Source: Deltaproteobacteria bacterium (GTDB lineage: Bacteria; Desulfobacterota; Desulfobulbia; Desulfobulbales; Desulfocapsaceae). Taken from it: a stretch of 64,000 nt of DNA. Made by a program: the position numbers and the translations under genes. Of the stretch, positions 8,052 to 62,128 are shown piece after piece. The notes below the pieces were generated by a model that was given only the letters and a program-made list of their open reading frames with translations, ran no database searches and had not been told where the DNA came from. Position 1 is the stretch's first letter. The number at the start of each line of letters is the position of its first letter. Location: the NCBI GenBank assembly GCA_026388715.1, contig JAPLJF010000026.1:62001-126000 (forward strand), given 5' to 3'.

Positions 8052-8091
8052 TAACAAGAAAGCCCCGCACAAGTGCGGGGCTTTCTTGTTA
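8052..8091 (-). terminator. Terminator after cspA (symmetrical, possibly bidirectional)
   Basis: A perfect 19-bp inverted repeat with a 2-nt spacer; its GC core GCCCCGCAC/GTGCGGGGC is flanked by TTTCTTGTT in both directions. It ends the cspA message 14 nt after its stop codon. Confidence 0.9.
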
Positions 8092-8105
8092 CTGTCTAAT
8101 GGTTC

Positions 8106-8306
8106 TTACAGCTTGGTAACGTTTTCAGCTGCTGGGCCTTTGGCACCATCAACTACGTCAAACCGGACGCGTGCGCCCTCATCAAGGGATTTGAAGCCAG
8201 CTCCCTGAATTGCAGAGTGATGAACGAAAACATCTTTTCCGCCATCCTGCTCAATAAAGCCAAACCCTTTAGAATCATTAAACCATTTTACTGTACCTTC
8301 TGCCAT
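8106..8306 (-). CDS. CspA-family cold-shock protein
   Basis: A 66-residue single cold-shock domain that binds single-stranded RNA/DNA and melts RNA structure. RNP1 (KGFGFIEQ) and RNP2 (DVFVHHSAI) are intact and the sequence opens [17 protein letters not shown] as in E. coli CspA/CspC. AAGGAG precedes the ATG by 9-10 nt. About 120 bp separate it from the upstream helicase gene on the same strand and contain a 13-bp stem-loop. Which csp paralogue it is cannot be told from sequence, so no symbol is given. Confidence 0.97.
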
Positions 8307-8355
8307 TTTTACTACTCCTTTGTACTTGCTTCCATCTGGAAACTTTTTTTTAATA

Positions 8356-8385
8356 ACGCCAACCTATTGATAAATAGGTTGGCGT
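8356..8385 (-). other. 13-bp stem-loop between the helicase and cspA
   Basis: ACGCCAACCTATT / AATAGGTTGGCGT is a perfect stem with a 4-nt loop. On the minus transcript it is followed by an A-run rather than a U-run, so it is not a classical terminator. It lies either at the 3' end of the helicase message or in the 5' leader of cspA, where it could be a stability or temperature-responsive element (inference). Confidence 0.6.
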
Positions 8386-8427
8386 GCTTGCCTCAAGTAA
8401 TTCTTGGGTCATTCTTTTTTGAAATTC

Positions 8428-9684
8428 TTATCGTTTTGAAAATGTGGAGACTCCAAAAACAGCTGCTTTGGCTCGCTTATGCTTAGGAGCGCCCGTTGCT
8501 GAAGTTGTTTTATTCTTATTCCATGATCTTGCGGGCACGCTGGGTGTAGCGTTTTTGTCCTGGGCGTCGAAATTAAAGCCGGACACGGTTTCACGGAGGA
8601 TCTTTTTGCCAAGAGTCTGCTCAATCAGCTTGATCATCTTGTCATCATCGGCAGTCATAAAAGTGAATGCCTCTCCGGTACAGGCAGCACGACCAGTACG
8701 ACCAGTGCGGTGGGTATAGGCCTCGGCGGTATCGGGGACATCGTAATTGATGACATGCGAGATTCCGGAGACATCGATGCCTCTGGCCGCGATGTCGGTC
8801 GCCACCAGGATATTGAATGTGCCGCTCTTGAAACCATCCAGGGCTTGTTGCCTTTTGCTTTGTGATAAATTGCCCTGCAGGGAAGTCGCGCGGTAACCGG
8901 AGTTCTCCAGTTGCAGGGCAACGCTCTTGGCTTTGTATTTTGTTTTGGTAAAGACCAGAGTGGTCGTCATCCCTTTTTGTTCCAGGATATTCTTCAGTAA
9001 TTCAGTCTTGCGATTTTGGGCAACTGGAATTAACGCATGGCTGATGGATGCTGCCGCCTGGGTATGATTAATCTGCACCGTAGCGGGGTTCGTAAGGATA
9101 TCCTCGGCGAGGTGGCGGATTTCTTTGGGCATTGTTGCCGAAAAGACAAGAGACTGGCGCTTTTTCGGAATATATTTCAATATTCGACGAATGTCTGGTA
9201 AAAATCCTTTGTCAAACATATGATCGGCCTCGTCGAGAATGAGTATCTCAACATTGCCGAGGTTGATTGCCCTATCGTTTACGTGATCAAGCAGTCGTCC
9301 GGGACAGGCTACAATAATTTCTACCCCTGCCCGAATTTTTTTAACCTGTGTCACCTTGCTGACACCACCATAAATGACGGCGCTACGCAGATTGGTTAGA
9401 TGGGCCATTTTCTCAATGTAACTATGGATCTGTTCAGCTAGTTCCCGGGTAGGTGCCACGATCAGGGCCCTGACGCTCTTTCTGGGGCCATCCAGAAGAC
9501 GTTGCAGAGTGGGAAGTACAAAAGCGGCCGTTTTACCGGTTCCGGTTTGGGCCAGGCCAAGAAGGTCGCGACCTTCGAGAACAGGTGGTATTGCCTGCAG
9601 TTGAATAGGTGTGGGTACGGTGTAGCCGCTTTTCTGAATGGCGGTGGCGATGTGCGGGTGAAAATTAAAAACTGTAAAACTCAT
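8428..9684 (-). CDS. DEAD-box ATP-dependent RNA helicase (RhlE type)
   Basis: A 418-residue RNA helicase that uses ATP to unwind short RNA duplexes in ribosome assembly or mRNA turnover. The motif series is complete: Q motif with PTPIQLQAIP, motif I AQTGTGKT, Ia PTRELAEQI, II DEADHMF, III SATMP, V ATDIAARGIDV and VI HRTGRTGRA. The C-terminal tail after about residue 370 is short, basic and low-complexity, as in RhlE-like enzymes. AAGGAG precedes the ATG. cspA follows on the same strand, suggesting a joint role at low temperature; RhlE, CsdA or SrmB cannot be separated with confidence. Confidence 0.93.
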   Translation of the reverse strand: MSFTVFNFHPHIATAIQKSGYTVPTPIQLQAIPPVLEGRDLLGLAQTGTGKTAAFVLPTLQRLLDGPRKSVRALIVAPTRELAEQIHSYIEKMAHLTNLRSAVIYGGVSKVTQVKKIRAGVEIIVACPGRLLDHVNDRAINLGNVEILILDEADHMFDKGFLPDIRRILKYIPKKRQSLVFSATMPKEIRHLAEDILTNPATVQINHTQAAASISHALIPVAQNRKTELLKNILEQKGMTTTLVFTKTKYKAKSVALQLENSGYRATSLQGNLSQSKRQQALDGFKSGTFNILVATDIAARGIDVSGISHVINYDVPDTAEAYTHRTGRTGRAACTGEAFTFMTADDDKMIKLIEQTLGKKILRETVSGFNFDAQDKNATPSVPARSWNKNKTTSATGAPKHKRAKAAVFGVSTFSKR

Positions 9685-15308: not shown

Positions 15309-15394
15309 TGGTACCGTAGAGAAGACTCGAACTTCCACGAGGAAACCCCCACTAGGACCTGAACCTAGCGCGTCTACCATTCCGCCACTACGGC
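15309..15394 (-). tRNA. tRNA-Leu (anticodon CAG)
   Basis: An 86-nt class II tRNA with a long variable arm. Acceptor GCCGTAG pairs with CTACGGT (one G-U), discriminator A, CCA encoded. The anticodon stem CTAGG/CCTAG encloses loop TTCAGGT, giving anticodon CAG. It is a single-gene unit with its own promoter and terminator. Confidence 0.97.
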
Positions 15395-15482: not shown

Positions 15483-16454
15483 ATGGAAATTTTCAGAGAA
15501 CTTGAGGCTATTGAGAACACGTTTCCCTATGCCTGTGTCACTGTCGGCAATTTTGATGGGGTGCATCTTGGTCATCAAATGTTGTTTGCCGAGGTGGTGC
15601 AAAGGGCCTACCGCCATCATGGTACCAGTGTTGCCATTACCTTTGATCCCCATCCTCTGCAGGTGCTTCGACCCGAAGGGATCAAACTTATCTCCACCTG
15701 CGCCCAGAAAATCGAGCTGATTGGTCATGCCGGGATTGATGTCCTGGTGATTGTCCCTTTTACCTTGCAGTTTGCTGCCACTTCGGCCGTTCATTTTGTT
15801 GATGAAATCCTCAAGAGGCGCATAGGGGTTAAAGAATTGGTGGTCGGTTATGATTATGCCTTTGGTAAGGGTAGGACTGGCGATATCCCTTTTTTGCAAA
15901 AACAGGGGCTGGAAAAAGGGTTTCCCGTAACTGTTGTTGATGCCCATTATGAAAACGGGATGGTGGTCAGTTCAAGCAAGGTGCGGGAATTAGTAGTAGA
16001 AGGGCGGATGGAGGATGCGAGAAGGTTGCTTGGCCGTTTCTATCAGATCCGAGGTGAGGTCCAGGTTGGGAAACAGCGCGGTGGTAAGGAAATAGGTTTT
16101 CCCACGGCCAATCTGCATCTGGATGCGGAAGACCTGATTCCCAAGATCGGTGTCTATGTGAGTCAGGTGATCTGTGACGGCAAATGTTATGGTGGGGTCT
16201 TGAATATTGGTTATAATCCCACCTTTGGTGAAGAAAAACTGGTTGCTGAGACCCATATATTTGATTTCAGCCAAGATATTTATGGAAAGCCCATAAAGGT
16301 GAATCTGTTACAGTTCTTGCGCGGAGAACAGAAATTTTCAGGTGTTCAAGAGCTTGCCGCCCAGATTGGCCGTGACGTGGTCCAGGCAAGGCGGGTGCTG
16401 GCGGCACAACAGAAAGAATTAACACTTTCCTGTGAAGAAAAGTTTAATAGCTGA
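15483..16454 (+). CDS. ribF: Bifunctional riboflavin kinase / FAD synthetase
   Basis: Phosphorylates riboflavin to FMN and adenylates FMN to FAD, 323 residues. The N-terminal nucleotidyltransferase half has the VGNFDGVHLGHQ motif, TFDPHPLQV and the VVGYDYAFGKGRTGD segment. The C-terminal kinase half has RGEVQVGKQRGGKEIGFPTANL (split) with the metal/ATP-binding GFPTAN. It is followed, over a 350-bp gap, by the TPR-HEAT-TPR genes and then the other riboflavin genes, so flavin functions cluster here. It should supply FAD for AprA and QmoA/B. Confidence 0.97.
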   Translation: MEIFRELEAIENTFPYACVTVGNFDGVHLGHQMLFAEVVQRAYRHHGTSVAITFDPHPLQVLRPEGIKLISTCAQKIELIGHAGIDVLVIVPFTLQFAATSAVHFVDEILKRRIGVKELVVGYDYAFGKGRTGDIPFLQKQGLEKGFPVTVVDAHYENGMVVSSSKVRELVVEGRMEDARRLLGRFYQIRGEVQVGKQRGGKEIGFPTANLHLDAEDLIPKIGVYVSQVICDGKCYGGVLNIGYNPTFGEEKLVAETHIFDFSQDIYGKPIKVNLLQFLRGEQKFSGVQELAAQIGRDVVQARRVLAAQQKELTLSCEEKFNS

Positions 16455-16816
16455 TTCAGGTCAGGGGGTTGACAGCAGGAGGGAGAGAAACGAATTGATA
16501 ATGTCAGAACGTTCTTGATCTTTCTGGTGATACATGGGCATCGCCTTGAGTCCTTTATTGGGCGCAGTCTGGTATTTAAAGTTATTTATTAAAAGAACGT
16601 AAAGGATAGTAAGCGGTATGGATGGTTGCAGAGGGGAAGTCTCGAGATACCATCCAGGAGCCGTTGAATAGATTTTCTTCTTGCAAGTGTGTTGAAGGTG
16701 TCTATAGTGTATGCGATTTAGTGACTTGGTGAAAATCTGCGTTTTTTGGCAGAAATTTTTCGTAAAGTCTTCCCTGGTGAGTTGAAGGTAAAGATAAATT
16801 AGAGACGGTGGTTGTT
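16455..16816. other. 362-bp gap upstream of the TPR gene, no gene seen
   Basis: No open frame or RNA family is recognised. GGATGGT at 16620-16626 and ACCATCC at 16649-16655 can form a 7-bp stem with a 22-nt loop. A TTGACA at 16469-16474 has no properly spaced -10. It may carry the leader of the TPR-HEAT-TPR unit. Confidence 0.4.
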
Positions 16817-17446
16817 ATGTCAGAACAGTTGCAGGAAAATTTACCAAAAATTATTGAAGAGTTTGAAAAGAAATGTCAGCAGAGCCCTAATAATGTAATG
16901 GCGCATCATCATCTGGGGTTGGTCTATCTGAAAGCCGGCCGTGTGGATGACGCCATAAAAATGCTTGAGCGGGCCATTGCTATTGATCCCATGAGTGGTG
17001 AGAGCATGATCAACCTAGGGGCCATTTACTTTGGCAAGGGGGATCTGGCCAAGGCCCAGGAGCTGAACGAAGAGGCGATCAGAGTCATGCCTGAGACCGC
17101 TCAGGCCCATGCCAATATGGGGTTGATCTGGCAGCAGCGCAACGAGCTGGATAAAGCCATAGCGGCTTACGACAAGGCCATTCAGCATGATCCCAAGCTG
17201 GCTACGGTGTGGATGAACCTGACCTCGGTATTGACCATGAAGGGTGAGGACGAACGAGCCCTTAAGGCGGCGCGTAAGGGCGTGGAGCTTGATCCGGACT
17301 CCCCGTTGGCCCAGAATAATCTGGCGGTGGCCCTTTTCTTCAGTGGCGAGTTCAAGTCGTCCAAGGAGCATATGGAGAAGGCCAGAGAGCTTGGGTATTC
17401 CGTGGATCCGAATTTTGTCAATCGTCTCAATCAAGAGTTGGCATAA
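16817..17446 (+). CDS. TPR-repeat protein
   Basis: A 209-residue soluble protein built almost wholly of tetratricopeptide repeats: about five copies from residue 35 on (for example HHHLGLVYLKAGRVDDAIKM, INLGAIYFGKGDLAKA, ANMGLIWQQRNELDKAI, NNLAVALFFSGEFKSSKEHM). No signal peptide or membrane helix, so cytoplasmic, and probably a protein-interaction scaffold. ATG 16817 (MSEQLQ) is preferred to the in-frame GTG at 16808. First of three apparently co-transcribed genes; the specific partner is unknown. Confidence 0.85.
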   Translation: MSEQLQENLPKIIEEFEKKCQQSPNNVMAHHHLGLVYLKAGRVDDAIKMLERAIAIDPMSGESMINLGAIYFGKGDLAKAQELNEEAIRVMPETAQAHANMGLIWQQRNELDKAIAAYDKAIQHDPKLATVWMNLTSVLTMKGEDERALKAARKGVELDPDSPLAQNNLAVALFFSGEFKSSKEHMEKARELGYSVDPNFVNRLNQELA

Positions 17447-17492
17447 AGCAAGAAATGCGATCTGGAGTTGATCTCGAATCAATTGATAGTGT

Positions 17493-18653
17493 ATGAGTAA
17501 GCAACGAATAACAACACCACCGTGGTGTCCCTTTTGTGGCCAGAAAGTTGGGCGGGCAACGGATGGCATAGAACGGAAGATGCATGAGTTCAAGGTGGGG
17601 CGTTGCGAGTGTGGCGCGGTTTATAGCTGTGATCCCACTGGCCATAACATCGGATCGGCCATTGTCGAGACCTTGGTCCTGGCTTGTGACAATAACTGGG
17701 ATTTGGCTTGGGACCTGTTGCCTGAAGATGACTATCTGACTGGCCGGGTGGAAGATTATGACGAATTGACCCACCAGGTTGTCAATACCAAGAATATGGA
17801 TGGTCGGCCGGTGCGGGGTGTCCTTTATTTTGTACGTCTGCATACGGCGATCACTGAGATTTCCAAGCGGGTCAAAGAGAAAAAATCTGCCCAGGCCAGC
17901 CAACTCAATGTCGAATCAGAACAGATTCCTATTGTGATGGAGCCTGTTCTTGATCCAAAACGGAAAAAAGCCAAGGCCACCAAACAGGATGTGAAACGAT
18001 ATGCCGAACTGGGCGATATCGATGCCCTGGTCGCCCTCTGTTTTGATGACAAGAAGACCCTGCGTCTCATGCAACGGTTGTTGTATGAGCCAGACGAGGA
18101 ACAGCGATGGCGGATCGCCGGGATTATCGGACAGGTTTGTTCCCGGGTTGCCAGCAGGGAACCAGGGCAGGTGGCTGAGCTGTTGCACCGGCTTTTTGAG
18201 GCCTGTTCCGATTCCGCTGCCACCCCCTGGGGCATGGTGGAGACTCTGGGAGAGGTGATCGCCGGGCGGCCTGATATCTTTGGCGCCTTTACCCGGCATC
18301 TCTTGAACTATATGGGGGACAGCTCTACGCAGAGCCAGGTTGTCTGGGCACTCAGCAAGATTGCTCGGGTGCGGCCTGATCTGATCCGTGCAACCCCTTT
18401 CTACAATCTGTTTCATTTTATGAATGATCCCGATCCGGCCATGCGCGGTCAGGTTGCCCGTCTGTTGGGCCGTATCAATGCAACAGAGGTCGCAACCCAG
18501 CTTATGGCGCTCACTGAAGATACGGCTGAGTTGTCGATATGGGAAGACGCAAAATGTATTCAATATACCGTTTCAGCCCTGGCCCAGGAGGCTGTGGCCA
18601 GGATTCATAGAGGAGATTCCAGCAATGACCAAGACCACCCTGCAATCCATTGA
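17493..18653 (+). CDS. Zn-finger / HEAT-repeat protein of unknown function
   Basis: 386 residues. The N-terminus has a knuckle-like set of cysteines (C12, C15 in WCPFCGQ; C38, C40 in RCECGA; also C46), suggesting zinc binding. The middle (about 60-135) is an unrecognised alpha/beta segment. From about 165 to the end the protein is helical with HEAT-like repeats (LLYEPDEEQRWRIAGIIGQV, MVETLGEVIAGRPDIF, ALSKIARVRPDLI, DPDPAMRGQVARLLGRI). I have a memory of similar proteins in sulfate reducers annotated as DVU0298 family, which a search should confirm. Its last 29 nt overlap the next gene, so the two are translationally linked. No enzyme motif is visible. Confidence 0.8.
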   Translation: MSKQRITTPPWCPFCGQKVGRATDGIERKMHEFKVGRCECGAVYSCDPTGHNIGSAIVETLVLACDNNWDLAWDLLPEDDYLTGRVEDYDELTHQVVNTKNMDGRPVRGVLYFVRLHTAITEISKRVKEKKSAQASQLNVESEQIPIVMEPVLDPKRKKAKATKQDVKRYAELGDIDALVALCFDDKKTLRLMQRLLYEPDEEQRWRIAGIIGQVCSRVASREPGQVAELLHRLFEACSDSAATPWGMVETLGEVIAGRPDIFGAFTRHLLNYMGDSSTQSQVVWALSKIARVRPDLIRATPFYNLFHFMNDPDPAMRGQVARLLGRINATEVATQLMALTEDTAELSIWEDAKCIQYTVSALAQEAVARIHRGDSSNDQDHPAIH

Positions 18654-19221
18654 GAATATCGTCCCGGTGGATCAGAAGAAGAAATCCTCTGATCCTGCCC
18701 AGGCACAATATGAAGAAGGAAAGGACTTTTTAGAGAAGAAGGAACTGGCCCAGGCCGCCCTTGCCTTCCATAATGCCCTTTTGGCCTTTGAAGAAAAAAA
18801 TAACCAGAACGGAATTGCCAATGCCGCCAACCAGCTTGGTCATGTCTGTCTGCAGCGTCAAGACTACGAAATGGCCCTGAAACATTATCAGCGGGCTTGG
18901 GAAATCTGTGAGAAGCAGGATGATCCTATGAGTCTGATTGCCCTGTCGCAAAAGCTTGTTTCAGTGTACCAGGGGATGAAACAGTATCCAGAGGCCGTTA
19001 AAATCTGTCTTGATCTGCTCGAGTCGTATAATCTGAACAATAATCCACAAGGGGTTGTTGATACCTTGGAACGGATGGTTGGTATTTATATTGAAGCGGG
19101 CGATACAGCCAAGGCTGCCGATGGGTATCGGACGATTGCCTCTATCCACTCCAGGTATAAACACAAGAATATCGCCGAGCGTTTTATGGAAAAGGCGCAG
19201 GCACTGGAAGAGGCTGTCTGA
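18625..19221 (+). CDS. Second TPR-repeat protein
   Basis: 198 residues; the true start is ATG 18625 (MTKTTLQSIENI) with AGAGGAG 9 nt upstream, inside the end of the HEAT gene. The same reading frame is open further upstream, but that part is out-of-frame HEAT coding. After a short Lys/Pro linker, three to four TPRs follow (ALAFHNALLAFEEKNNQ, QLGHVCLQRQDYEMALKHY, LVSVYQGMKQYPEAVKI, MVGIYIEAGDTAKAADGY). Cytoplasmic. ribE begins 19 nt downstream, so this cluster may share a transcript with the riboflavin genes. Confidence 0.85.
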   Translation: MTKTTLQSIENIVPVDQKKKSSDPAQAQYEEGKDFLEKKELAQAALAFHNALLAFEEKNNQNGIANAANQLGHVCLQRQDYEMALKHYQRAWEICEKQDDPMSLIALSQKLVSVYQGMKQYPEAVKICLDLLESYNLNNNPQGVVDTLERMVGIYIEAGDTAKAADGYRTIASIHSRYKHKNIAERFMEKAQALEEAV

Positions 19222-19240: not shown

Positions 19241-19900
19241 ATGTTTACAGGCATTGTCGCAGGTACAGGCATATTGCGGGGGAGACGAGGTGCTGTCGGT
19301 GGTCTGGCCTTTGACCTTGAGGCGGGATTTGATCTGGTTGATCCGGAAGAAGGGGAATCGATTGCCATTAATGGTGTCTGTCTGACGGCGTATGCCATGG
19401 CATCCCGACGTTTCACATTGGATGTGTCTCCTGAAACCCTGACGCGCACTACCTTGGGAGATCTTGGCGTTGGTGCTCCGGTCAATATGGAACGGGCCTT
19501 ACGGCTGTCTGACAGGTTGGGAGGACACATCGTTTCTGGTCATGTTGATTGCGTGGCCACGGTGCGTGAGCGACGGCCCACAGGTGCCTTTACCCTTTTC
19601 ACTTTTTCCTTGCCTGAACAATGGAGCCGGTATGTTATTGAAAAGGGATCGGTTACGATTGATGGGGTAAGTCTGACCGTCAACAGTTGCAGGGCAGGGC
19701 GATTTGAGGTCTCGATCATTCCGCATACCCTGCAGGTGACTACCCTTGGTCGGTTGAAGATCGGTAGCCGGGTGAATATCGAGGTGGATATTATCGGGAA
19801 ATATGTGGAAAAGCTTCTTGGTGCCCAGCCTGCTATCGCTTCCGGGCAGGAACCGGGAAAGATTAATTCTGCCTTTCTGGCAGAGCATGGTTTTTTTTGA
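19241..19900 (+). CDS. ribE: Riboflavin synthase (alpha subunit)
   Basis: Dismutates two 6,7-dimethyl-8-ribityllumazine molecules to riboflavin. The 219-residue protein has the two tandem lumazine-binding domains: MFTGIVAGTG at the start with INGVCLTA, and a second copy with VDCVATV, IDGVSLTVN and VEVDIIGKYVEKLL-type ending. ATG 19241 follows AAGGAC by 4 nt; the open frame continues upstream only as overlap with the TPR gene. It leads the ribE-ribBA-ribH group. Confidence 0.96.
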   Translation: MFTGIVAGTGILRGRRGAVGGLAFDLEAGFDLVDPEEGESIAINGVCLTAYAMASRRFTLDVSPETLTRTTLGDLGVGAPVNMERALRLSDRLGGHIVSGHVDCVATVRERRPTGAFTLFTFSLPEQWSRYVIEKGSVTIDGVSLTVNSCRAGRFEVSIIPHTLQVTTLGRLKIGSRVNIEVDIIGKYVEKLLGAQPAIASGQEPGKINSAFLAEHGFF

Positions 19901-32501: not shown

Positions 32502-32577
32502 GCTGGCGTAGCTCAACTGGCAGAGCAGCTGATTTGTAATCAGCAGGTTGCGGGTTCAAGTCCCATCGCCAGCTCCA
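32502..32577 (+). tRNA. tRNA-Thr (anticodon TGT)
   Basis: 76 nt including encoded CCA. Acceptor GCTGGCG/CGCCAGC, discriminator T, anticodon loop TTTGTAA. First of four tRNAs ahead of tuf, the position of thrU in E. coli. Confidence 0.98.
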
Positions 32578-32663
32578 GCTATTACAAGTCATGCTCTTTC
32601 CGTCTTGAATGTATGTTGTAAGATGGCAGTGAAATAAGAGTGCAAGCAAAGTAGTCTATGAAT

Positions 32664-32748
32664 GGAGGGGTTCCCGAGTGGCTAAAGGGAACAGACTGTA
32701 AATCTGTCGGCAGCGCCTTCGGAGGTTCGAATCCTCCCCCCTCCACCA
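32664..32748 (+). tRNA. tRNA-Tyr (anticodon GTA)
   Basis: 85-nt class II tRNA with long variable arm and encoded CCA. Acceptor GGAGGGG/CCCCTCC, anticodon loop CTGTAAA. Corresponds in position to tyrU. Confidence 0.98.
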
Positions 32749-32775
32749 TTTTTTGTTCCGAATTTTAGGTGCCAA

Positions 32776-32851
32776 GCGGGAATAGCTCAATTGGTAGAGC
32801 ATCAGCCTTCCAAGCTGAGGGTTGCGAGTTCGAGTCTCGTTTCCCGCTCCA
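32776..32851 (+). tRNA. tRNA-Gly (anticodon TCC)
   Basis: 76 nt with CCA. Acceptor GCGGGAA/TTCCCGC, anticodon loop CTTCCAA. Corresponds in position to glyT. Confidence 0.98.
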
Positions 32852-32883
32852 ATGTAAGTTTTTTTTCGTTTGTACGGATAAGG

Positions 32884-32959
<76 letters not shown>

Positions 32960-33005
32960 GATGTGTTGCTATTTAAACCAGTTTATGGTCAGGGAGACGA
33001 CGACT

Positions 33006-34196
33006 ATGGCAAAAGAAAAGTTTGACAGGAAAAAACCACATGTCAATGTGGGTACTATAGGTCATATAGATCACGGTAAAACGACCCTGACCGCAGCGAT
33101 AACCCGCGTTCTTTCGACAAAGGGTCTAGCTAAATTTACTGATTTCAGTGAGATTGACAAGGCTCCGGAAGAAAAAGAGCGTGGAATTACCATTGCAACC
33201 GCCCATGTTGAATATGAGACCGCCAATCGACATTATGCCCATGTGGACTGTCCTGGTCATGCTGATTATATAAAAAATATGATTACCGGTGCGGCCCAGA
33301 TGGATGGTGCTATTCTGGTGGTCGGTGCCAATGATGGGGCCATGCCGCAAACTCGTGAACATATTCTTCTTGCCCGTCAGGTTGGTGTTCCTTGTATAGT
33401 GGTATTTTTGAATAAATGTGACATGGTGGATGACCCTGAACTGATTGAGCTGGTAGAGATGGAGCTGCGTGAGCTGCTTGATAAATATGACTTCCCCGGT
33501 GATGATGTCCCCATTATTCATGGTTCGGCCCTGAAGGCCCTTGAGAATCCCGAAGATCCCGAGGCTGCCAAATGTATCTGGGACCTGATGGAGGCTATCG
33601 ATACGTATGTCCCTCAACCAAAGCGTGATATTGATCTTCCTTTTCTGATGCCAGTTGAGGATGTTTTTTCCATCTCTGGACGTGGTACGGTTGCCACGGG
33701 TCGTATTGAGCGTGGTATTGTTCGTGTCGGTGATGAGGTTGCCATTGTTGGTATTCGTGATACGGTCAAGACGACTATCACTGGTGTTGAGATGTTCCGC
33801 AAGATCCTTGATGAGGGTCAGGCTGGAGATAATATCGGGGCCCTGCTTCGTGGTACCAAGCGCGAGGATATTGAGCGTGGACAGGTTCTGGCTAAACCCG
33901 GCACCATTACTCCCCATACCAAATTCAAGGCTGAGTGCTATATCCTGGGTAAGGAAGAGGGCGGTCGTCACACCCCGTTTTTTAACGGATATCGTCCCCA
34001 GTTTTATTTCCGGACGACCGATGTGACCGGCATTGTGACTCTTCCCGAGGGAACCGAGATGGTAATGCCTGGTGATAATGTATCTGTTGTTGCTGAGTTG
34101 ATTACCCCGATTGCCATGGATGTTGGTCTTCGTTTTGCTATCCGTGAGGGTGGCCGGACTGTTGGCGCTGGTGTTATCAGTGAAATTATTGCTTAA
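33006..34196 (+). CDS. tuf: Elongation factor Tu (copy 1, tRNA-linked)
   Basis: GTPase that delivers aminoacyl-tRNA to the ribosome. 396 residues with GHIDHGKTT (P-loop), DCPGHADYI (switch II), NKCDMVDD (G4) and GSALKALE (G5). The start is ATG 33006; the frame is open upstream to 32961 but AGGGAG fits the MAKEKF start. The protein appears identical to the second copy at 49953-51143, while the DNA differs at scattered silent sites. It is downstream of four tRNAs and ends in its own terminator, the tufB arrangement. Confidence 0.98.
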
Positions 34197-34207
34197 TATT
34201 AAAATTT

Positions 34208-34243
34208 AAGCACTTTGCCTGGTTACAGGCAGAGTGCTTTTTT
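34208..34243 (+). terminator. Rho-independent terminator after tuf copy 1
   Basis: A 13-bp stem AAGCACTTTGCCT / AGGCAGAGTGCTT with one G-T pair and a 6-nt loop, followed by T-run. rpmG starts only 18 bp later, so the rpmG-tRNA-Trp-secE unit either uses readthrough or a promoter inside this region. Confidence 0.9.
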
Positions 34244-34260
34244 CTATTGGATGGATGGGT

Positions 34261-34410
34261 ATGAGAGATATCATTACTCTTGCGTGTGGAACATGCAAGC
34301 GTCGGAATTATACGACGACAAAGAATAAGAAAAGTACGCCCAATAAGCTTGAGCTCAAGAAGTTTTGCTCATTTTGTCGGGCGCATACGCCGCATAAAGA
34401 GACAAAATAA
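34261..34410 (+). CDS. rpmG: 50S ribosomal protein L33
   Basis: A 49-residue zinc-type L33: [17 protein letters not shown], with CGTC early and CSFC later (C9, C12, C36, C39) as metal ligands. Too short for many gene callers. ATG 34261 matches the family start; an in-frame ATG at 34255 would add MG. Upstream of tRNA-Trp, secE and nusG, a conserved order in many bacteria. Confidence 0.95.
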
Positions 34411-34430
34411 TACCTTCCTGAGAATGCAGT

Positions 34431-34506
34431 AGGCCAGTAGCTCTAATGGTAGAGCGCCGGACTCCAAATCCGGATGTTGGGGGTTCGAATCCCTCCTGGC
34501 CTGCCA
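34431..34506 (+). tRNA. tRNA-Trp (anticodon CCA)
   Basis: 76 nt with encoded 3' CCA. Acceptor AGGCCAG/CTGGCCT, discriminator G, anticodon stem CCGGA/TCCGG around loop CTCCAAA. Placed between rpmG and secE. Confidence 0.98.
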
Positions 34507-60823: not shown

Positions 60824-62128
60824 ATGAGTGGATTGCAAAGAGCTGCCAACATTCCCGAACTGCGTAAGAGAATTTTTTTTACTCTTGCCATGCTCGCTGT
60901 ATATCGGATGGGAGTGCAAATACCAACGCCAGGAATTAATGGCGAGGCGGTTGCCGCCTTTTTTCAACAACATGCTGGGTCATTATTTGGTATGTTTAAC
61001 ATGTTCTCTGGTGGTGCCTTGTCAAAGTTTTCAATATTTGCTCTTGGTATCATGCCATATATCAGTGCCTCAATTATTATTCAACTCCTGACGGTTGTCG
61101 TTCCCCAGCTTGAGGCCCTGTCAAAAGAGGGTGAGTCGGGAAGAAGAAAGATTACACAATATACCCGCTATGGTACCGTTGGGCTGAGTATAATTCAGGG
61201 ACTTTTTATCAGTACCGGCCTTGAAGGTATGACGGGTCCTGGTGGAGAGATTATCGTTCTTGTACCTGGCCTGCAGTTTAAATTGTTGACCATGCTCACT
61301 TTGACATCGGGAACTGCATTTATTATGTGGCTTGGTGAACAGATGACCGAACGTGGTATTGGTAATGGAATGTCTTTGATTATCTTTGCTGGAATTGTTG
61401 CGAGTGGCCCTGCCGCCGTTGCTAATTCCATTCAACTTATAAAAGCCGGTGAGATTTCACTGTTTTTTATTCCATTTATTATAGCTTTTATGGTTGCTGT
61501 TGTTGGTTTTATTGTTTTTTTTGAAACTGCTCAGCGGCGGATACCTATTCAGTATGCAAAACGGGTTGTGGGAAGAAAGGTTTATGGTGGTCAGAGTTCT
61601 CATCTCCCGCTAAAGATCAATATCGCTGGCGTAATTCCACCAATTTTTGCCTCATCGATCATGATGTTTCCCGCTACTATTGGTAGCTTTATCAAGATTG
61701 ACTGGGTTCAACAGGTTTCAGCGGCCTTCTCTCCCGGAACTGTTTATTATTATATCCTTTTTGTAGGTATGATTGTTTTCTTTTGTTTTTTTTACACGGC
61801 TGTTACCTTCAAACCAGATGATGTTGCTGAGAATCTGAAAAAGAATGGTGGTTTTATTCCAGGGATTCGTCCGGGTAAGAAGACCGCTGAGTTTATAGAC
61901 AAGGTCTTGACCAGGATAACAGTTGTAGGCTCAATCTATCTCAGTGTTGTATGTGTGTTGCCAACCTTGCTGATTTCAAAATTTAATCTTCCTTTTTATT
62001 TTGGCGGGACAGCCCTTCTTATTGTGGTAGGTGTAGCAATTGATACAATGTCACAGATTGAATCTCATCTTGTTATGCGAAATTATGAAGGATTTATGAA
62101 AGCCGGTAAAATTCGCGGTCGAAAGTAG
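60824..62128 (+). CDS. secY: Preprotein translocase subunit SecY
   Basis: 434 residues, ten membrane helices; protein-conducting channel. [17 protein letters not shown] (TM2) and [19 protein letters not shown] are conserved marks. An internal promoter is not obvious. map starts 2 nt downstream; adk, often between secY and map, is absent. Confidence 0.99.

Follow-up and report, generated by a model that had tools for sequence, protein, structure and literature searches.

A conserved TPR/zinc-ribbon-HEAT/TPR gene module as a candidate accessory set of dissimilatory sulfite reductase in Desulfobacterota

A cluster of three genes for tetratricopeptide repeat (TPR) and HEAT repeat proteins, which in relatives is often found beside genes of dissimilatory sulfite reductase (Dsr), lies between ribF and ribE in a genome of the family Desulfocapsaceae (order Desulfobulbales, phylum Desulfobacterota; assembly GCA_026388715.1). 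We analyzed it within a window of 64,000 nucleotides (nt), positions 62,001 to 126,000 of contig JAPLJF010000026.1. As stated in the original prediction, made from the letters of the window alone, three open reading frames (ORFs) follow one another on the + strand: TPR1 (16817-17446; 209 aa), a zinc-ribbon/HEAT protein (17493-18653; 386 aa; HEAT protein below), and TPR2 (18625-19221; 198 aa). Their description as repeat scaffolds with a zinc site is borne out by Pfam matches of the two tetratricopeptide proteins to TPR_2 (TPR1, E = 8.5e-31) and TPR_12 (TPR2, E = 5e-12), by a match of the HEAT protein to HEAT_2 (E = 1.8e-8), and by the layout of the latter, in which an N-terminal zinc-ribbon domain with four cysteines (residues ~1 to 135; 17493-17903, + strand; C12-x2-C15 ... 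C38-x-C40) precedes a C-terminal HEAT solenoid (residues ~164 to 379). C12, C15, C38, C40, G54, D80, Y89, and F113 are invariant in an alignment of 44 N-domains (A2). No enzyme family was above cut-off for any of the three proteins among the Pfam and NCBIfam matches listed (for TPR1, the best 25 of 46 and the best 25 of 47), which agrees with the claim that none carries an enzyme motif.

The three genes are neither scattered nor missing in close relatives, the outcome that the original prediction had named as fatal to it. Neighborhood comparison found the order TPR1-HEAT-TPR2 on one strand at all 57 loci from the order, of which 17 came from a genome-contig scan (covering close relatives only among the matches returned) and 40 from 40 other genomes, hand-picked from 97, mostly for long contigs. 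TPR1, HEAT, and TPR2 form one conserved unit. A match to the HEAT protein was present in 95 of the 97 order genomes (own included), and those in G022, G065, and G077 were weak and paralogue-type. The 29-nt overlap of HEAT and TPR2 that had been reported is present in this assembly and absent from the 19 relative loci compared, where the junction is a 4-nt overlap (16 loci), a 1-nt overlap (1 locus), or a 2-nt gap (2 loci). Three of these loci repeat contigs already present in the set, and a 20th (L057) gave no result; counted by genome (n = 16), the corresponding figures are 13, 1, and 2. Just 5' of the TPR2 start, the window is one base shorter than its relatives, so that the HEAT frame runs beyond its usual stop. 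This difference at the HEAT 3' end (18560-18660) may be either biological or an assembly error.

A survey sample of 395 genomes, all from the phylum Desulfobacterota, was searched with a HEAT profile (A1, 32 proteins; full-length match, >180 bits) and, for dsrA, with TIGR02064. DsrB, DsrD, DsrN, and DsrT were assigned by their sequences and gene positions (DsrN from context and a CobB-family match, DsrT from position and an RsbRD_N domain), and representative DsrM, DsrK, DsrJ, DsrO, and DsrP passed NCBIfam cut-offs. A total of 75 genomes had a full-length HEAT protein, and direct re-search placed dsrA above cut-off in 72 of these, compared with 188 of 395 overall (Fisher P = 1.6e-23, with genomes counted as independent and kinship ignored). 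Two of the three HEAT genomes without dsrA are incomplete (G172, 62%; G137, 67%); in the third, G396, a distance of 1.7 kb separates HEAT from the contig end, and in two genomes from its genus dsrAB is on that side. HEAT and dsrA share a contig in 46 of the 75 genomes and lie within 10 kb of each other in 37, across 13 of 22 families, a proximity expected from random placement in no more than ~1% of genomes (20 kb of 1.6 to 5.4 Mb; our estimate).

Within the order, the module occupies one of two kinds of position. Of the 40 further loci, half (20) lie between ribF and ribE, in families f1, f4, and f12. The other 20 are flanked by dsrN plus dsrABD (13 loci), by dsrABD only (1 locus), or by dsrN only (4 loci), while the stretch fetched for the last two (L065 and L079) held neither. 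The usual layout on the dsr side is dsrN (divergent), TPR1, HEAT, TPR2, and then dsrD, dsrB, and dsrA convergent. Outside the window's family, 35 order genomes are HEAT positive, and in 21 of these dsrA is placed within 10 kb of HEAT; because dsrA is present in 94 of the 97 order genomes (own included), co-occurrence at this level is uninformative. The riboflavin setting in which the cluster was first seen was encountered in only three of the order's families examined, the others being mostly on the dsrN-dsrABD side. A riboflavin-linked function was rejected as the leading explanation on that ground and because outgroup loci are often dsr linked.

Phylogenetic placement suggests a direction for this change. 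In a tree of 71 HEAT proteins, the 31 outgroup rows stay on one side and the 20 rib-located rows require two changes, with a single origin still compatible with the tree. In a tree of 58 DsrA proteins, those of three rib-located genomes, the window's included, are nested among the DsrA of dsr-located genomes, some of the forks being weak. By locus content, the DsrA rows divide into 33 with HEAT and TPR1, 12 with TPR1 alone, and 13 with neither, and a group of five rows, mostly short DsrA, holds just one of the 12 TPR1-alone rows. The dsr position is probably ancestral and the rib position derived. In the window, the rib neighbors stand outside the module: ribF upstream (15483-16454, + strand; FAD_syn and Flavokinase, TIGR00083 above cut-off) and ribE, for riboflavin synthase, downstream (19241-19900, + strand; Lum_binding, E = 8.9e-50). 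The spacer from TPR2 to ribE is 19 nt, and ribE is probably cotranscribed with the module in this genome. The interval between ribF and TPR1 (16455-16816) contained no Rfam match at gathering level.

ARRANGEMENTS. We also examined 31 HEAT-centered outgroup loci. These were taken from 59 outgroup genomes, partly for linkage already seen, and the unbiased figure for linkage is the 37 of 75 given above. TPR1 is present in 29 of the 31 loci, and dsr genes are present in 23 (the loci without them are L139, L146, L147, L148, L155, L156, L157, and L165). HEAT and TPR2 are fused into a single protein of 553 to 588 aa in 11 loci (L130-L132, L136-L138, L142, L145, L146, L159, and L160), and 6 of the loci encode TPR2 separately. 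The fusion was detected with BLAST, using unfused TPR2 proteins as references, and the claim rests on this comparison because the TPR2 profile includes fused C-termini. Taken together, the conserved unit at 57 of 57 loci and the fusion of two of its members make it likely that the products form a defined complex, as had been proposed.

The outgroup loci also bear on which part of the Dsr system such a complex would serve. TPR1 stands directly 3' of DsrP on the same strand in six loci (L130-L132, L145, L159, and L160; in L137, two ORFs lie between DsrP and TPR1), an arrangement that would suit a factor for assembling the membrane complex DsrMKJOP, acting for example on its haem or Fe-S subunits, and not on DsrAB. 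We consider this quite unlikely, considering that dsrMKJOP is found in only 8 of the 31 loci versus 22 of 31 for dsrABD or dsrN. Further genes recur in the dsr loci. Two different CxxCxxCC (PF03692) families are recurring neighbors (F4 and F9; L141:6320-6952 and L132:7224-7889), and a small PF09723 zinc ribbon, presumably FmdB-like (F12; L135:8338-8586), recurs next to dsrABD or the module. This combination of CxxCxxCC and zinc-ribbon neighbors looks like metallocofactor maturation. A family of ~380 aa (F5; e.g., L162:7435-8583), represented by a protein that matches nothing in Pfam or NCBIfam, adjoins HEAT or dsr genes; it follows HEAT directly in 10 outgroup loci and with one gene between in L129.

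Among the dsr-linked members of the module, TPR1 has the widest distribution. A TPR1 profile (A3, 38 proteins) was run on the 395 genomes, with placements listed down to ~163 bits and score bands used because TPR matches are unspecific. At ≥195 bits, TPR1 was found in 105 genomes, with dsrA in 103 and within 10 kb in 62; at 180 to 195 bits, dsrA was present in 16 of 17 genomes (within 10 kb in 9); and at 160 to 180 bits, dsrA was present in 24 of 28 (within 10 kb in at least 10). The lowest band must consist partly of generic TPR proteins. That the dsr-linked TPR1 is itself ordinary TPR noise was rejected on the difference between 103 of 105 at ≥195 bits and 24 of 28 at 160 to 180 bits. Among the TPR1 matches listed are 73 of the 75 HEAT genomes, the misses being G100 and G172. 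We also examined 20 dsr loci hand-picked from the 116 dsrA-positive, HEAT-negative genomes, and 11 had a TPR1 homologue next to dsr genes. It immediately precedes dsrA in 6 (L171, L175, L180, L184, L185, and L187), precedes dsrA with F5 in between in 2 (L174 and L176), and lies beside dsrD in 3 (L177, L181, and L183). The six loci with TPR1 directly before dsrA speak further against DsrMKJOP as the client. In L173 (G115), a weaker TPR1-like gene lies ~15 kb from dsrA. A stand-alone zinc-ribbon domain gene (170 aa) adjoins it, beyond a dsrABDN-TMKJOP run.

The AlphaFold2 model of the HEAT protein (mean predicted local distance difference test score [pLDDT], 88.4) consists of an N-terminal domain and a helical solenoid. 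In fold searches, the whole model matched HEAT/ARM solenoids of a generic kind: the top Foldseek match was 4l7m (E = 2.3e-4), and the top VIA match reached Z = 15.7 across 206 residues (root mean square deviation [rmsd], 3.5). Such matches carry no information on function; no tetrapyrrole lyase was among the fold matches listed, a result that excludes nothing. Modeled alone, the N-domain reached a pLDDT of 92.7 and a predicted template modeling score of 0.85 and had weak matches in the PDB (lowest Foldseek E value, 0.38; top VIA match, Z = 4.0 across 79 residues with an rmsd of 3.8). It occurs as its own gene in L167 and L168 (121 and 115 aa). A separable and highly conserved domain with a four-cysteine site could sense metal, redox state, or sulfide and, through the repeat proteins, control dsr expression or protein stability. 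Such a regulator, the other role that had been floated for the cluster, appears improbable to us, as no DNA-binding, kinase, or other signaling family was above cut-off among the matches listed for the three proteins.

Residues 168 to 368 of the HEAT protein belong to the NCBIfam "DVU0298 family" (NF045662; 195.2 bits against a cut-off of 75), a likeness confined to the C-terminal HEAT domain. The window protein differs in its added four-cysteine domain, its TPR partners, and the dsr linkage of its relatives, and the family name carries no function. The same genome encodes a short DVU0298-type paralogue (236 aa; L002:1486-2196) that lacks the zinc domain, shares a WG-x-x-E motif, and adjoins putative ferritin-like and nitrilase/RfaE-like ORFs named from sequence. 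TPR1 resembles the small TPR proteins MamA and Ycf3, the latter of photosystem I assembly, with scores below the equivalog cut-offs of both (116.4 against 200 and 62.1 against 143); such matches are expected between any TPR proteins. DsrD, DsrN, and DsrT share loci with the module and are likewise found with dsrAB but belong to different protein families.

Of the two roles suggested in the original prediction, that of an assembly platform fits. Our preferred reading takes the cluster as an accessory module of dissimilatory sulfite reductase whose likeliest task is the maturation or assembly of DsrAB; we give this mechanism roughly even odds (about 0.5). TPR1, the HEAT protein, and TPR2 would be soluble cytoplasmic helical scaffolds joined in a complex that holds nascent or apo DsrA/DsrB while siroheme and [4Fe-4S] clusters are inserted or the two subunits are joined. 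Siroheme would be made into siroheme amide by DsrN, and the complex would release DsrAB afterwards. We favor maturation because the frequent direct neighbors are dsrN and dsrABD and the extra genes encode cysteine-cluster and zinc-ribbon proteins; DsrN is described as a siroheme amidase in passages of PMC10504309. A more specific version, which we put forward tentatively and at clearly less than even odds, is a dedicated maturation machine that would take over siroheme amide from DsrN and insert it, together with the coupled iron-sulfur cluster, into DsrAB, with TPR1 as the ancient core and HEAT, TPR2, and the CxxCxxCC proteins as lineage-specific additions.

TPR and HEAT repeats are protein-binding scaffolds, and the module might instead tether fully assembled DsrAB, together with DsrC and the cytoplasmic DsrK face of DsrMKJOP, as a metabolon scaffold, or act as an activity regulator that tunes electron delivery. 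Linkage to dsrABD as well as dsrMKJOP is consistent with this, as is the neighbor DsrD, which passages of PMC10926707 describe as an allosteric activator of DsrAB. On argument only, we regard it as unlikely: dsrN modifies the cofactor, and the CxxCxxCC and zinc-ribbon neighbors suggest maturation over turnover.

Several observations weigh against a role in DsrAB maturation. Contact between the complex and DsrAB is a step that we infer, and linkage to dsrMKJOP would suit another client equally. The E/Z-type HEAT lyases and phycobilisome NblB offer a parallel, as helical-repeat proteins whose targets are tetrapyrrole proteins. The likeness of the HEAT protein to these tetrapyrrole-handling proteins is weak, with both matches below curated cut-offs (HEAT_EZ, PF13513, 25.0 against 27; NblB, 18 bits against 300). 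Linkage within 10 kb is reached in only 37 of the 75 HEAT-positive genomes, and 116 of the 188 dsrA-positive genomes have no full-length HEAT protein. The window's own genome carries the module, dsrAB, and dsrN on three different contigs (C22, C25, and C19, respectively), and none of the four sampled genomes of its family is dsr linked. Five order genomes (G022, G044, G050, G065, and G077) have dsrA and no full-length HEAT match. TPR1 is not beside dsr genes everywhere either: dsrA is within 10 kb in 33 of the 49 genomes that have TPR1 at ≥180 bits and are HEAT negative, 9 of the 20 dsr loci from HEAT-negative genomes have no TPR1 beside dsr genes (L173 and 8 that show none), and at least 18 genomes with short DsrA (388 to 407 aa) have no TPR1 within 10 kb among the matches listed, which implies that the module is dispensable for making DsrAB in those lineages.

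The unlinked genomes of the window's family and the five dsr-positive order genomes without a full-length HEAT match would also agree with a housekeeping complex unrelated to Dsr, placed beside dsr genes by chance and vertical inheritance. We judge this very improbable, since 13 of 22 families show linkage, the linked loci have several gene orders, TPR1 is linked also in loci without HEAT, and nearly all genomes with high-scoring TPR1 (the 103 of 105 above) are dsrA positive. The module is very probably tied to the Dsr system, whichever step it serves.

The enzyme DsrAB is central to sulfate respiration and supplies its usual marker gene. To our knowledge, no factor that loads its coupled siroheme/iron-sulfur center has been described, and none was found in the open-license literature searched. 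A search of that literature, outside which subscription papers mostly fall, likewise found no description of the module. TPR1, HEAT, and TPR2 are absent from the passages on Dsr gene sets in PMC13047784, PMC10504309, PMC13293266, and PMC10926707, and the module is not described in passages of PMC8528874, PMC545781, PMC10686091, and PMC10580974; in PMC10504309, on the synteny of named Dsr proteins, "tetratricopeptide," "TPR," and "HEAT" do not occur in the main text. Two candidate descriptions were set aside: in the part of PMC2901600 covered, DVU0298 is a mere locus tag in the table of a paper on carbon monoxide, which we take for a slip, and PMC7774982, in the part covered, concerns the YcaO-TPR fusion DVU2210. 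Within the open-license literature searched, the module would be an undescribed Dsr accessory set; its link to Dsr is well supported, though not in the window's own genome and not in every dsr lineage. A conserved, dsr-linked set of scaffolds would make the loading of siroheme and iron-sulfur centers testable and could supply new marker genes, and a well-studied pathway would gain two unassigned parts, the four-cysteine N-domain and the ~380-aa family F5.

A tblastn search of a plasmid collection returned no match to the module, and a plasmid origin was rejected. Elsewhere in the window, a tRNA gene lies on the - strand shortly ahead of ribF (15312-15394), five tRNA genes lie on the + strand within 32502-34503, and an Rfam match to the cspA thermoregulator (91.1 bits) lies on the - strand at 8055-8464.

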